From: Clostridia bacterium
Lineage (GTDB): Bacteria > Bacillota > Clostridia > Oscillospirales > CAG-272
DNA length: 62,878 nucleotides
Direction: 5' to 3'
Assembly: GCA_017935065.1 (NCBI GenBank)
Contig: JAGBIF010000033.1
Location: 1-62,878, forward strand
A model generated the notes under the pieces. It saw only the letters and a list, made by a program, of their open reading frames with translations, was not told where the DNA came from and searched no databases. Of this stretch, positions 4,625-30,968 are shown piece after piece. The translations under genes and the position numbers were made by a program. Position 1 is the stretch's first letter. Every line of letters starts with the position of its first letter.

Positions 4625-6895
4625 ATGAAAAAAATTCTTTTGCTTATTCTTTTAATGCTTCTTTCGGTATCAATGCTTCTGACCTCGTGTAATCTTAATG
4701 AGGATGATGAGGATGAAAAGGATCCGCCGAATACGGATACTGATACGGATACCGATACGGACACCGATAAGACCGTTATCACAATGCCTTATACCTTCGG
4801 GGATATTACTCTTACTGTCGGTGAGAGTATTCCTCTGCCAAGGGTACTTAAGGACGGCAGTGTCAACCGCACGCTTACCTATACCGTAAGCGGAAGTCAG
4901 GCCACGGTTGGGGGCTATGTGCTTACCGCAAGGGCAGAGTGCGCGGCGGGTGTTACTGTATCGGTAAGCTGTGAGGGCTATTCGGCAGCCTTTGCGCTCA
5001 GGATAAATGCGGCACCCGACGGTGACACATCACAGCCACAGACACCTGTGCGTGAGAGCTTCGGTAAGTACAGTCAGGGCACGCTCGGCGTTGAGGGTGG
5101 CTATGTATATGATGAGAGCAAGTCGGCATATGTGACTAAAGCAGGCACCAACGGTGATAGCGCCTTTATACTCAAGGCAGGTACACCTCTTATGGTGGAC
5201 TACTTCTTCAATGCCAATGTAACCGTTCCCGATATGAAGGAGGGCGGAGCCTTCTACCTTTCCTGCAAGAAGGGAAACAGCACCGTGATCCGATTCGGTA
5301 TTGAGGCGACATCGACGAGCAGCTTCAAGATTATTTCCGACTACTGTCAGGGAAGCACCGCCATAAGAGGCAGAATTACTCATAAGACGGTTTCGGGCTA
5401 TACAGGTGCGCCGATAAAGCTCGGTGTCGTAGCGTACGGCAACTCGGTTGTGATGCTCTATCAGGGGAAGCTTATATATAAGCGCACGCTCTCGGGTATT
5501 GGCGATTCCGAGCTTGTAGTCTCGGGTGGCGGCAATATGGTAGCGCAGATAGCGGGTATACAGTACGAGGACGACAGCGCAAGGACCGAAACTCTCTACA
5601 ATATGGCGCTCGGTGAGTACAGAGATGCACTCTTCACCTCGTCGCAGTTCCCCGAAAAGATTACCGAGGATAGGGCAGCGGGCACTGTTACTCTGTCAAA
5701 TAAGGCATCAAACACCGATTCCCCTGCGATATACCCCGCAACGGGCGGAAATCAAATATCCGCGCCCGCCTTCGCAATAAAGGGTACGGTGAGAATTGTG
5801 ATCGCCGATGGCAAGTCGGGACATTTCAATTTCGCAACGATAGCCGACTCCGACAATTCCGCGAATATTATAGTTAACCGAAATCTTACCGGCTCAAACG
5901 GTGTGTGGCGAAATATTAAGCTTGACGGCACCCGCGCCCCCGCATCGGGCAACGAGCATATTTCCGAGACACTTACCGTAGGTACCGATTGGACGGCAGA
6001 ATTTGCCTACACCTTCTATAAGGGCGAGCTTTGCCTCTATATAAAGGAAAAAGGTGAGAGCTGGGAGCTTGTATCAAGATGTAAGACCGATTGGGCAAGC
6101 GCATACCCGAAGCTGATTGCAAAGCAGTATGTCGATGCGACCTTCTCAAATCTCACTATGACAATGAATGAAAGCGAAGTAGTCGACATAATAAATGAGG
6201 TCGACCTGACGAAAGGAAAGGATACTATGAAGATACTGTTTATAGGAAATAGCGCTACCTCTGTTAACGATGTACCTAATCTTCTCAAAAGACTTGCGGC
6301 AAGCGCGGGCAAGACTGTGACCGTCAAGGCGATTACCAAGGGCGGATACACTCTGGCACAGCATGCCGATGAGACCACCGACCACGGCAAGGGTGTCTAT
6401 GCCGAAATCGCGAAGGGCTACGATATAGTATTCCTGCAGGACAACGGCAACTGTATTTCCAGCACCGCAAATATCGATGCCAGCACCTCGGCGTGCAAGA
6501 AGCTCGCCTCTGCGATAAAGACCGCGGGCGGCAGGACCTACCTCTATGTGCGTCCGCCCTACGGCTACGAGAGTAGCGGAAGGACACCGTTCCAGCAGTG
6601 CGAGGGCTTCGATACACACTTCACAGATATAGCTCTTGAGGTGGGCGGAGTGTGCGCTTATGTAAACCGTGCGTTTGCATATGCTATCAAAAATCATGCA
6701 AGTCTCGCTCTATGGGGCTCGGACAATGCGCACACAAGCGAGCTTGGCGCATACCTTGTTGCAAGCGTTATGTTCACTACGATTTACGGCATCTCTGCGA
6801 CAGAGCTTGATAAGGATTCCTTATCCGCGACCGATGCCGCGCTTATTCAGTCAATCGCCGACAAGATAGCGCTTGCTGGCTATAATCCATTCTAA
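4625..6895 (+). CDS. secreted lipoprotein with C-terminal SGNH/DUF4886 hydrolase domain
   Basis: This 756-residue surface protein starts with a lipoprotein signal (hydrophobic stretch, lipobox LTSC at about 19-22). A short acidic linker follows, built of repeated Asp-Thr (encoded by six GATACG-like units near 4737-4768). The middle part (about 60-530) looks like two or more beta-sandwich modules, probably carbohydrate-binding or LamG-like. The last ~220 residues form an SGNH-type domain: KILFIGNSATSVNDV carries the GNS block I serine, FLQDNG is a block III-like segment, and SDNAHTSELG holds the catalytic-type D-x-x-H. This domain resembles DUF4886 proteins, often esterases on plant glycans. 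AGGAGG precedes the start. The substrate is not known. Confidence 0.82.
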   Translation: MKKILLLILLMLLSVSMLLTSCNLNEDDEDEKDPPNTDTDTDTDTDTDKTVITMPYTFGDITLTVGESIPLPRVLKDGSVNRTLTYTVSGSQATVGGYVLTARAECAAGVTVSVSCEGYSAAFALRINAAPDGDTSQPQTPVRESFGKYSQGTLGVEGGYVYDESKSAYVTKAGTNGDSAFILKAGTPLMVDYFFNANVTVPDMKEGGAFYLSCKKGNSTVIRFGIEATSTSSFKIISDYCQGSTAIRGRITHKTVSGYTGAPIKLGVVAYGNSVVMLYQGKLIYKRTLSGIGDSELVVSGGGNMVAQIAGIQYEDDSARTETLYNMALGEYRDALFTSSQFPEKITEDRAAGTVTLSNKASNTDSPAIYPATGGNQISAPAFAIKGTVRIVIADGKSGHFNFATIADSDNSANIIVNRNLTGSNGVWRNIKLDGTRAPASGNEHISETLTVGTDWTAEFAYTFYKGELCLYIKEKGESWELVSRCKTDWASAYPKLIAKQYVDATFSNLTMTMNESEVVDIINEVDLTKGKDTMKILFIGNSATSVNDVPNLLKRLAASAGKTVTVKAITKGGYTLAQHADETTDHGKGVYAEIAKGYDIVFLQDNGNCISSTANIDASTSACKKLASAIKTAGGRTYLYVRPPYGYESSGRTPFQQCEGFDTHFTDIALEVGGVCAYVNRAFAYAIKNHASLALWGSDNAHTSELGAYLVASVMFTTIYGISATELDKDSLSATDAALIQSIADKIALAGYNPF

Positions 6896-27803: not shown

Positions 27804-29309
27804 ATGGCAAAATTTATAAACGAACCCTCACATACCTTTAACGAATATCTGCTTATCCCTGGCTACTCGTCGGCAGAGTGCATTCCCCAGAATGTAAGCC
27901 TCAAGACACCTCTCGTTAAGTTCAAGGAAGGTGAAGAGAGTGCGATTACAATGAATATCCCTATGGTATCGGCTATAATGCAGGCGGTATCGGGAGACAG
28001 ACTTGCGGTAGCTCTCGCAAAGGAGGGCGGTGTGTCCTTCATTTACGGCTCGCAGTCCATTGAGGACGAGGCGGCTATGGTAAGACGCGCTAAGAGCAAC
28101 AAGGCAGGCTTCGTTATTTCCGATTCCAATATCACCCCCGACGCGACGATGGCGGACGTTATCGCGCTTAAGGAGAGGACGGGACATTCCACCGTGGCGG
28201 TTACCGATGACGGCACGCCGAACGGCAGACTTCTCGGCATAGTTACCAGCCGTGACTACCGCCCCTCGCGTATGGAGCCCACCACCCCCGTGCGTGAGTT
28301 TATGACACCCTTCGCAAAGCTCGTTACCGCACCCGAGGGTACTACCCTTAAGGAGGCAAACGATATTATCTGGGAGCATAAGCTCAACTCGCTTCCTATC
28401 GTTGACAAGGACGGAAAGCTTCTTTATATGGTATTCAGAAAGGATTACGAGTTCCATAAGGCAAACCCCAACGAGCTTCTTGATAAGGCAAAGAGATACG
28501 TGGTCGGTGCGGGTATCAATACCAGAGACTATGCGGAGCGTGTTCCCGCGCTCGTTGACGCAGGCGTTGACGTGCTTTGCATTGACTCATCCGAGGGCTT
28601 TTCCGAGTGGCAGAAGCGCACTATCGCGTGGATAAGAGACAAGTACGGTGACAGCGTTAAGGTTGGCGCGGGTAACGTTGTAGACGCGGCGGGCTTCCGC
28701 TTCCTCGCAGACTGCGGCGCGGACTTTATCAAGGTCGGCATCGGCGGTGGCTCTATCTGTATCACAAGAGAGACTAAGGGTATCGGACGCGGACAGGCAA
28801 CCGCGCTTATCGACGTATGTGCAGAGCGTGACAGATACTTCGAGGAAACGGGCGTATATATTCCCGTATGCTCGGACGGCGGTATCGTTTACGACCACCA
28901 CATCACCCTTTCGCTTGCTATGGGCGCTGACTTCGTAATGCTCGGCAGATACTTCGCAAGATTTGATGAAAGCCCCTCGAACAAGGTTTCTATCGGCGGT
29001 ACCTACTACAAGGAATATTGGGGCGAGGGAAGCGCCAGAGCAAGAAACTGGCAGAGATACGACCTCGGCGGTGATAAGAAGCTCTCGTTTGAGGAGGGCG
29101 TTGATTCCTACGTTCCTTATGCGGGTAGCCTTAAGGATAACGTGGCTATGTCGCTCGCTAAGGTTAAGTCCACGATGTGCAACTGCGGCGCGCTCACCAT
29201 TCCCGAGCTTCAGGAAAAGGCAGTCCTCACCCTCGTCAGCGCAACCAGCATAGTAGAGGGCGGTGCACACGACGTTATAGAGAAGGACAAGAGCGGTAGG
29301 ATTAAGTAA
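27804..29309 (+). CDS. guaB: IMP dehydrogenase
   Basis: Oxidises IMP to XMP with NAD+, first step of GTP synthesis. The 501 residues hold the barrel split by a CBS pair (~100-230, including [12 protein letters not shown]). The catalytic loop is [18 protein letters not shown] with C319; the flap has [10 protein letters not shown]. The GGGSIC form and the [10 protein letters not shown] segment place it in a divergent IMPDH branch. It is the last gene of the pyrimidine operon (33-base gap after pyrB), so a purine gene is apparently co-expressed with UMP synthesis. Confidence 0.95.
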
Positions 29310-29366: not shown

Positions 29367-29467
29367 ACCCCCGAAAAGGCATATATGGGGTAAATTTATT
29401 ATTAAGTAAAATATTATTTCAGTAATTTTCCTGAAAAAATCGTGCAGATATTTTTTTGCAAAAAGGG

Positions 29468-29496
29468 TTGATTTTTTCGTGGGAAAGTGATACAAT
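29468..29496 (+). promoter_or_regulatory. promoter of the pseudoknot-repeat RNA
   Basis: TTGATT (29468-29473), 17-base spacer ending in TGA, TACAAT (29491-29496). The expected start is near 29503. Confidence 0.75.
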
Positions 29497-29502
29497 AACA
29501 GT

Positions 29503-29638
29503 GACAGTAAATTGCTGCTCGATATGCAAGTGAAATAAAGTCGAGATTTTCCATTTAATTGCTGCTCGATATGCAAGTGAAATAAAGTCGAGATTTCTCT
29601 AACTGTCAAAAAAATCCTGCTTCACGCAGGATTTTTTT
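29503..29638 (+). ncRNA. small RNA with two tandem 47-base pseudoknot-forming repeats
   Basis: It has its own promoter and an intrinsic terminator (29608-29638). The inside holds two exact 40-base copies (29510-29549 and 29557-29596, period 47). In each copy TTGC can pair with GCAA (29512-29515/29526-29529) and CTCGA with TCGAG (29518-29522/29541-29545). These two stems interleave, giving an H-type pseudoknot with loops of 2, 3 and 11 bases; the last loop is A-rich (GTGAAATAAAG). GACAGT (29503-29508) and ACTGTC (29602-29607) can close the whole unit. Tandem pseudoknots before a terminator are the layout of type III antitoxin RNAs (ToxI, CptI). A tandem riboswitch or trans-acting RNA is an alternative. 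Confidence 0.65.
29608..29638 (+). terminator. terminator of the pseudoknot-repeat RNA
   Basis: AAAATCCTGC pairs with GCAGGATTTT around TTCAC, ending in T7. Confidence 0.92.
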
Positions 29639-29662
29639 AATGAGTGAAAAATTAGGGATATT

Positions 29663-29779
29663 ATGGAAAGGTTGATTATAAACAAGGCGTTTCTTGATGG
29701 CTGTGACGCGCCCTAGAGGATGGGAACAGCGTTTACCCGCAAGACTGTTTTTGAGTACGACTATTACAGCAAGCACTGA
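29663..29779 (+). pseudogene. short ORF remnant interrupted by TAG, between two terminators
   Basis: Reading from ATG 29663 (AGGG six bases upstream) gives MERLIINKAFLDGCDAP, an in-frame TAG, then RMGTAFTRKTVFEYDYYSKH and TGA. It lies exactly where a type III toxin gene would be: after the RNA terminator and before another strong terminator (29790-29828). At 39 codons it is far shorter than known toxins of that type (~150-200 residues). It is either a deletion remnant or chance; no homology is recognised. Confidence 0.3.
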
Positions 29780-29789
29780 ATAATAAAGC

Positions 29790-29828
29790 AACGGGCGTGA
29801 TGCTTACATTCGCATCACGCCCGTTTTA
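29790..29828 (+). terminator. strong intrinsic terminator
   Basis: AACGGGCGTGATG pairs with CATCACGCCCGTT, then TTTT. No intact gene lies directly upstream, which supports the idea of a lost gene at 29663-29779. Confidence 0.85.
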
Positions 29829-29889: not shown

Positions 29890-30035
29890 TAAAATGATTG
29901 AACTTTGTCAGGCTTTAGACCGACAAAAAAGCGGGAAAACTGTCAGCCTTAAGCCTGACAAAAATGTTGACAAGTATATTCTTTTTCGTATATGTGCGAT
30001 ATATGTAAATAATAGGTGTCAAAATGCTATGTATT
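29890..30035 (-). terminator. paired TGTCAGG hairpins downstream of manA
   Basis: Two related hairpins lie here. On the minus strand the first is TTTTTGTCAG...CTGACAGTTTT (about 29938-29968) and the second is TTGTCGG...CCTGACAA (about 29910-29932). They may terminate manA transcription. The short frame running 29894-30103 on the plus strand overlaps manA and is not believed. Confidence 0.4.
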
Positions 30036-30968
30036 TCAGTCGATGCTTACCGCGATTATTTTTCCGTAGCCTGAAATTTTGGCAAGTCCTGAGCCTCTTT
30101 TGATAAGCGCGGTCTCGCCTGTGGCAAGGGGTAGGCTCTCACCCCCGAGCGTCACCGTAAGCTCGCCTGCGACAGCCGTGAGCGAAAGGAACGAGGTGTC
30201 GCTCACCGCAAGCTCGGCATCGGTGCCCGAGAGTGTATATTCTCTTGCGAAAAAGTAATCGCATTTTGCAACCGTCCGTGCGCCGTCGCTTTCGTCGGGG
30301 TACTCGGCATTGCGGTAGACGTCGGGTATCAGCACCTCAAGTGCCTTGTCAAGGTGAAGCTCACGCTCACGGCCGAGACTATCGCGTCTTTTATAATCGT
30401 AAAGGCGGTAGGTCAGGGTAGAGGACTGCTGTATCTCGAAAATAAGCACGCCCTTGCCTATCGCGTGCACGGTGCCTGCGGGGATAAAGAAGAAGTCGCC
30501 AGGCTTAACCCTCTTAAACGAGAGCATTTTTTCAATCTCACCGCTGACTACCGCCTCGCGTATCTCGTCCTTCGTGTAGCGCTTGTCAAAGCCGAGATAC
30601 AGCCCCGCGCTCTCGTCGCAGTCGACCACGTACCACGCCTCGGTCTTTCCGTACATTCCCTCATTTTTCAGGGCGTATTCGTCAGACGGATGCACCTGCA
30701 CCGAGAGATTGTCCCTTGCGTCTATAAATTTTGTGAGAACGGGAAACGCACCGAAGCCTCGGCGCTCGGAATAAAGCTCGCTTTGCGGTATGAGCTTACT
30801 TATCGGTATTCCGTCTGCCTGTGCCTCGCTTCCCTCAATAAATGAAAGCTCCCAGCTCTCGGCAATACAGGAAAGCCCCTCTGACTTGCCCTTGCCAAGC
30901 TCAAAAAGCCGAGTACCGCCCCAGATTGCCTCCTTAAGTACGGGTGTAAGCTTGAAAATTTTTTTCAT
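30036..30968 (-). CDS. manA: class I mannose-6-phosphate isomerase
   Basis: Interconverts mannose-6-phosphate and fructose-6-phosphate. The 310 residues match the short cupin form of Firmicutes. Zinc ligands are visible in QVHPSDEYA, the Glu of GKTEAWY and AGTVHAIGKG. SWELS near the start and FEIQQSSTLTYRLYDY are also conserved. It is a monocistronic gene with its own promoter, unlinked to other sugar genes here. Confidence 0.93.
   Translation of the reverse strand: MKKIFKLTPVLKEAIWGGTRLFELGKGKSEGLSCIAESWELSFIEGSEAQADGIPISKLIPQSELYSERRGFGAFPVLTKFIDARDNLSVQVHPSDEYALKNEGMYGKTEAWYVVDCDESAGLYLGFDKRYTKDEIREAVVSGEIEKMLSFKRVKPGDFFFIPAGTVHAIGKGVLIFEIQQSSTLTYRLYDYKRRDSLGRERELHLDKALEVLIPDVYRNAEYPDESDGARTVAKCDYFFAREYTLSGTDAELAVSDTSFLSLTAVAGELTVTLGGESLPLATGETALIKRGSGLAKISGYGKIIAVSID

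Follow-up and report, generated by a model that had tools for sequence, protein, structure and literature searches.

Tandem CptI-type antitoxin units without a detected toxin in a Clostridia contig: a candidate stand-alone RNA gene

The CptIN system, the closest described relative of the locus analysed here, has been reported to assemble as a closed heterotetramer of two toxins and two RNAs, in which a single CptI repeat is the full antitoxin (accessible part of PMC4627078). The accessible part of a survey of type III toxin-antitoxin systems (PMC5086642) reports that no anti-phage activity was seen in the two CptIN systems tested and takes as its criterion a toxin homologue with a terminator and repeats ahead of it; because a toxin homologue was needed, toxin-free antitoxin RNAs would have been missed. 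A precedent for antitoxin-like RNA as a decoy is the pseudo-ToxI of phage PhiTE (PMC3475682, accessible part). Our literature search found toxin-free CptI genes described nowhere, with most subscription papers outside its scope and the absence accordingly unproven. Here we analyse a two-unit repeat array in contig JAGBIF010000033.1 of a Clostridia bacterium (assembly GCA_017935065.1, CAG-272), all 62,878 nt of which form the window of this study and in which a preliminary reading of the letters (the original prediction) had placed a type III antitoxin RNA locus with no intact toxin.

Repeat architecture and kinship with CptI

The window array consists of two identical 40-nt copies (29510-29549 and 29557-29596) at a period of 47 nt, exactly as originally described. 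Each copy holds one 34-nt CptI-type unit on the plus strand (unit 1, 29512-29545; unit 2, 29559-29592), in which the stems TTGC/GCAA (S1, 29512-29515/29526-29529 and 29559-29562/29573-29576) and CTCGA/TCGAG (S2, 29518-29522/29541-29545 and 29565-29569/29588-29592) interleave in H-type order with an A-rich loop of 11 nt. The predicted pseudoknot is borne out by the presence of these stems and by their covariation across relatives. The A-rich GAAATAAA, which had been proposed as a toxin cut site, is by comparison with CptI the loop strand of the knot.

A covariance model built from the four units of the window genome (R1) was searched against 394 genomes of the order and matched two at E<=0.01, the genome itself and that of a member of a sister genus (G293). 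In the latter, two units 46 nt apart are followed by a terminator-like hairpin and then directly by a 168-aa protein that is CptN (NCBIfam NF047359, E=2e-55; PDB 4RMO, the CptN toxin, E=1.5e-24). A second model (R3), built from 57 toxin-linked units only, recovers the two window units (32.5 bits, E=4.1e-7 each) as well as the two units of a paralogous array in the same genome (38.2 and 35.5 bits). NF047359 exceeds its cut-off in six of 395 genomes of the family, the window genome not being among them, and a two-unit array, read by eye, lies upstream of CptN in all six; at one of these loci (L041, with a one-base insertion) the relaxed finder recovers one of the two units. In this search, matches at E<=1 come from 82 of the 395 genomes, most of them weak, and from three of 14 control genomes, no control passing the cut-off; one genome (G574; 50.6 bits, E=2.9e-13) falls below the cut-off and was left uncounted. 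Searches across more than 40 genomes used stricter filters, at which weak matches are lost. PF13958, the ToxN family, has no match in the window genome, but no control genome matched it either.

The window units are identical to the nearest toxin-linked unit at 31 of 34 positions, and their period of 47 nt compares with 46-48 nt in two-unit arrays with an intact toxin. On these sequence comparisons the window repeats are almost certainly antitoxin units of the CptI family, which makes the new family that had been offered as an alternative unnecessary. The proposed type III antitoxin RNA is upheld by homologous two-unit arrays that directly precede CptN and by covariation in both stems.

Both pseudoknot stems covary in toxin-linked relatives. 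In an alignment of 97 distinct units with 872 cells, 99.9% of the cells are paired and 108 double-sided changes occur. The 57 distinct toxin-linked units show 100% pairing over 513 cells and 69 double-sided changes, and their pairing falls to 26-39% when the partners are slid. One of five measures computed on the 57-unit set, the number of further pair types, is not above shuffles (402 of 500 as high). The alignments (A5 and A6) hold 34-nt units only, with one row per distinct sequence; A5 omits the second unit of L163, one of 98 listed references, and A6 omits L041 and any toxin-linked unit with a sequence already listed for a different locus. Because the finder behind both alignments demanded pairing, near-complete pairing is partly by construction, and the unbiased check is the count of strict-pattern hits, in which mismatches were allowed at four pairs: full pairing is seen in 65 of 68 distinct units, against a shuffle mean of 30.9 and a maximum of 40. 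In Rfam 15 the toxin-linked CptI loci L036, L038 and L109 match nothing but tRNAs, and A5 and A6 could seed a family.

Window units 1 and 2 are joined by the linker ATTTTCCATTTAA (29546-29558), which lacks the CAAA motif of toxin-linked unit boundaries. Of 37 distinct two-unit arrays with intact CptN, 36 carry CAAA in the linker (40 of 41 rows, four of the 41 arrays being contigs counted twice); the exception, L095, reads ATAAAT. To judge by the scissile base reported for Eubacterium rectale CptI, A45 at the unit end (accessible part of PMC4627078), CAAA may be the CptN cut site. It is absent from the linkers of both the window array and its paralogue.

The array is preceded by a putative promoter region (29449-29496), in which a 12-nt palindrome, TTTTTGCAAAAA (29453-29464), stands directly 5' of a -35 box (TTGATT, 29468-29473) and is followed by a TG-extended -10 element (TACAAT, 29491-29496). 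The promoter originally assigned here stands as an extended -10 promoter-like site at 29468-29496; the scan alone is weak, such sites numbering four in the 1.8 kb scanned against 2.2 expected. At the inferred transcript start lies the 5' arm of a closing stem, TGACAGT (29502-29508), which pairs with ACTGTCA (29602-29608) beyond unit 2. An intrinsic-terminator-like hairpin of 13 bp with a T-run (29608-29638, arms 29608-29620/29626-29638) follows on the plus strand; it is not listed by a terminator-consensus scan. Rfam at gathering scores reports three tRNAs and no other RNA family in the window, and the top sub-threshold matches overlap mainly this hairpin. The closing stem, the palindrome, the loss of CAAA and an A at unit position 28 had not been recognised originally.

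No toxin found, and a second array in the same genome

A CptN profile searched with stop codons masked found nothing across the window or the 18 kb surrounding the paralogue, and CptN was not found in the window genome (1.74 Mb, 47 contigs, 74.9% complete); as the assemblies are incomplete, a verdict of no CptN means here and below that none was found. The position at which CptN begins in relatives is occupied in the window by an open reading frame (ORF) of 39 codons including the last stop, with an in-frame TAG (29663-29779, plus strand). It starts 71 nt after the array, where the CptN profile match starts at 58-83 nt in 37 of 41 intact-CptN two-unit rows and at 86-119 nt in four. The broken ORF of the original prediction is thus present, but it is not CptN-like: it scores -1.4 bits against the CptN hidden Markov model (HMM), less than the +0.6 that marks the 95th percentile of 1000 shuffles, and was rejected as a toxin remnant. 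A riboswitch or leader of this ORF was likewise rejected, given the terminator-like hairpin right after the array, the broken frame and the lack of a comparable ORF at the paralogue. From these searches it is very nearly certain that no toxin is encoded at either locus. The suggestion of an antitoxin RNA kept after toxin loss is supported, CptN being undetected in this genome and linked to homologous arrays elsewhere.

The paralogous array (L002) was found by searching the window's own genome (contig 23, 71226-71362, E=8e-30). It shares the period and the promoter block of the window array and has its own closing stem and terminator-like hairpin. The promoter block is identical over 33 nt (29449-29481) and at 41 of 44 positions over 29455-29498, and the units are identical at 62 of 68 positions, whereas the remaining transcript, made up of linkers and closing-stem arms, matches at 11 of 39, near chance. 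The S2 difference in the second paralogue unit is compensatory (CUCGA/UCGAG to CUUGA/UCAAG). In both loci a closing stem of 7-8 bp encloses the whole array, and its letters differ almost completely; the paralogue's arms, AAGTGCAG/CTGCACTT, lie in the window's register, three bases ahead of unit 1. In 20000 shuffles of each, a helix as long at the same register arises 35 times for the window and 13 times for the paralogue. The nested minimum-energy fold of the window RNA (z -3.3, to which the terminator contributes) contains 6 bp of the closing stem and the terminator hairpin and no knots, since the method cannot draw pseudoknots; the knots rest on covariation.

With units and promoter kept while linkers and arms have diverged to near chance, the comparison suggests that the RNA has been selected for with no toxin beside it, and the array has probably been maintained by selection. 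As the derived features are common to both loci, they are most simply explained by duplication of the array after toxin loss, with the knots maintained thereafter.

The array lies between an IMP-dehydrogenase gene (27804-29309, plus strand) and a convergent mannose-6-phosphate-isomerase-like gene (30036-30968, minus strand). Of the two terminators originally described, the first corresponds to the 29608-29638 hairpin with its T-run; the second, a terminator-like hairpin at 29790-29825 outside the RNA gene, scores on the minus strand only and for that reason more likely terminates the convergent isomerase-like gene. Downstream of that gene there is an inverted repeat (29904-29962) with 22-nt arms, 86% complementary, at 15 nt spacing. 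The paralogue lies in about 4 kb without convincing genes (L238, 5830-9860), between parA-like and phosphoglycerate-mutase-like genes (named by eye), a stretch in which Rfam at gathering scores has no match.

Among 19 guaB loci of congeners (flank up to 1.5 kb), none has a homologue of the isomerase or of the next gene beside guaB, so that an empty-site comparison is not possible. Searched against the congeners, R1 gives single weak matches in seven genomes at E<=1 (best 25.2 bits), and a further covariance model, R2, gives matches in 11 genomes at E<=0.05 (18-23 bits, against 42-45 for the window genome's own units); none is tandem and none was counted.

Toxin-free CptI units in other genomes and in phages

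A single degenerate unit pattern, which misses diverged units such as those of G293, was run over 84,980 species genomes and returned 87 stretches (L086-L172). Within 2.5 kb downstream, CptN is intact in 47, broken in 14, a weak trace in two and not found in 15; five stretches ended at a DNA limit and four had too little DNA to tell. One of the 15 (L135) fits the pattern but probably by chance, and was not considered further beyond this count. The question originally raised, whether homologous repeats precede a toxin-like gene, is answered by the arrays directly ahead of CptN and by these 47 genome-collection matches with intact CptN. Toxin loss from CptIN loci looks common on these counts, some of the breaks perhaps being assembly errors.

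These frequencies bear on the possibility that the window arrays are a decaying relic, the toxin having been lost and the arrays merely not yet eroded. Apart from the apparent commonness of broken and missing toxins (14 and 15 of 87, L135 included), this reading draws on the R3 scores, which are 32-38 bits here and 50-54 bits, in the same search, for toxin-free arrays of another genome (G798). It does not account for flanks that are near chance between the paralogues where units and promoter are not, or for compensatory changes in S2 and the closing stem, and we regard it as quite unlikely.

CptN was also sought in 18 genomes selected because their arrays or single units were toxin-free, had a broken toxin or were undecided; it is present at E<=0.001 in four and over the cut-off in three, and the genomes of two toxin-free arrays, L137 and L139, have CptN elsewhere. 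Such cases lend some weight to an unlinked pair, in which a cognate CptN, perhaps divergent, would lie in the unassembled quarter of the window genome, whose 47 contigs reach 74.9% completeness, and would be neutralised in trans. Against this, none of the six CptN-positive genomes among the 395 of the family is from the window genus, and the boundary motif that such a CptN would cut is absent; an unlinked cognate toxin is, in our estimate, quite unlikely too.

Two toxin-free two-unit arrays (L108 and L121) occur together in G798, which has no CptN. Neither linker carries CAAA (that of L108 has CAGAT), and position 28 is G, unlike in the window. Around these arrays (L121, 4631-4742, minus strand; L108, about 4980-5240), a promoter and leader are common to the arrays and to neighbouring RNA-like genes, with four occurrences and a diverged fifth of the shared promoter recognised by eye across the two loci. 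One of the neighbours is a drum RNA (RF02958, 60 bits); our literature search found no paper on drum RNA in Firmicutes.

Twenty stretches of the viral collection IMG/VR match the unit pattern, with CptN in three, none in 16 and too little DNA in one. Twelve of 13 distinct viral strict units are fully paired, against a shuffle maximum of 10; L075 is, by eye, the viral unit without full pairing. A unit flanked by tRNA-Tyr and tRNA-Ser inside a tRNA array is found in eight of the 20 viral stretches (14 of the 20 having been scanned), and these eight contigs hold just two sequence types, represented six and two times, so that they are not eight independent cases. They carry the single CptI unit inside arrays of up to 19 tRNAs (L066, L068, L071, L072, L074, L077, L078 and L081); in L068, for example, the unit (4933-4966) stands between tRNA-Tyr (4836-4922) and tRNA-Ser (4974-5064), and in L066 terminase and portal genes lie near it. 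Single units between tRNA-Tyr and tRNA-Ser occur in genome contigs as well (L115 and L125). No CptN was found within 2.5 kb of the tRNA-array units, L071 and L125 having too little DNA to tell. The tRNA-array unit has the look of a natural counter-defence RNA that phages direct against CptN. Further viral CptI units without CptN within 2.5 kb occur in L067, L069/L079/L080, L073/L076 and L082/L083; no tRNA array was found in those of them that were scanned (L079 and L080 lay outside the scan). Two other routes to mobile relatives were discarded: plain DNA similarity returned three and four records in phages and plasmids, all in short stretches that span no more than 19% of the query, and a first viral pattern scan gave 10 stretches, none of which proved a relative on inspection.

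Possible roles and comparison with known systems

We read the window array as an antitoxin RNA gene of CptI type that stands alone without a toxin, has been duplicated in its genome, is under selection and serves, in the role that we favour, as a decoy; our confidence in this whole reading is a little short of even. The transcript would be about 135-140 nt long and begin at the closing stem, and with CAAA lost from the unit boundary it would not be expected to be cut into monomers by CptN-type enzymes; the uncut RNA would stay one closed molecule with two CptI knots side by side, which would match the stoichiometry of the CptIN heterotetramer. With its two knots held together by a linker that resists cutting and by the closing stem, such an RNA would offer the two-RNA set of the tetramer in a single molecule. 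This favours the decoy, which would bind CptN-type ribonucleases in trans and so protect the cell, its targets being CptN from incoming plasmids, phages or neighbours, or a divergent CptN so far unseen. The toxin-free CptI units of phage contigs are also counted for a decoy. As a role taken by itself, the holding of CptN-type ribonucleases is the likeliest one, proposed tentatively at somewhat less than even probability.

Several observations weigh against this proposal. All four units of the window genome have A at position 28, where 67 of 69 distinct toxin-linked units have G and two have T (97 units in all, from 56 intact-CptN loci), and position 19 is G in the window copies, where 65 distinct 34-nt units have C in 62, A in two and G in one; these changes could amount to a loss of CptN binding. 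CptI RNAs are reported to be toxin-selective (accessible part of PMC4627078), and no CptN that meets the window RNA has been identified. The closing stem is a post hoc observation, and helices as long at any position arise in 75 and 25 of 2000 shuffles at the two loci. The arrays are found in one of 69 genomes of the genus only. Finally, CAAA is kept in five of nine two-unit arrays without CptN (L110, L113, L137, L139 and L163), so its loss is not general among toxin-free arrays; the five would fit recent toxin loss.

Some of these points would also fit exaptation, whereby a toxin-less CptI array now acts as a small RNA with another partner, either a protein or a target reached by base-pairing through the linkers. 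With the change at position 28 and the loss of CAAA, features tied to CptN are gone but the fold persists, and exaptation would explain the changed near-invariant positions and the selectivity of CptI at least as well as the decoy does. The conserved promoter with its palindrome suggests regulated expression, and the G798 arrays, also without CAAA though still with G at position 28, stand among RNA-like genes of the same promoter. Against it, no partner or target has been identified, and the linkers, in which the RNA would be single-stranded and free to pair, differ between the window and the paralogue as if unconstrained; exaptation is an unlikely reading, if a serious one.

If the decoy reading and the viral units are taken together, toxin-free CptI may be a recurrent kind of stand-alone RNA, with closed, uncuttable two-knot immunity or regulator RNAs in bacteria and single units in phages that disarm CptN, a generalisation that we hold to be less likely than not. 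Were it true, type III antitoxins would have a role apart from toxin-antitoxin pairs, for the host as well as for the phage, the unit in phage tRNA arrays suggesting natural counter-defence against CptN; and if such RNAs are functional, type III antitoxins can be independent immunity or regulatory RNAs. The cut and uncut versions also make the need of cleavage for inhibition directly testable.

Compared with the system that gives it its name (CptIN of Eubacterium rectale, PDB 4RMO; NF047359), the window locus has the same two tandem H-type pseudoknot units with a short L1, the same A-rich 11-nt loop and a terminator-like hairpin after the array. It differs in that no toxin has been found with it, the CAAA boundary motif is lost and position 28 is A for G; moreover, its genome has two arrays, and, by eye, the closing stem replaces the 5' leader hairpin of toxin-linked loci. 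ToxIN and TenpIN likewise place tandem antitoxin repeats and a terminator ahead of the toxin, but three ToxI-type RNAs described in the accessible part of PMC5086642 have units of 34-36 nt in 2.8-5.5 copies. The pseudo-ToxI of PhiTE resembles the window array in having antitoxin-like repeats without a toxin, which act in trans on the host toxin once expanded; it belongs to the ToxI family, is phage-borne and has in the wild type 1.5 repeats, with no full unit (accessible part of PMC3475682), whereas the window array holds two complete CptI units in a bacterial genome.
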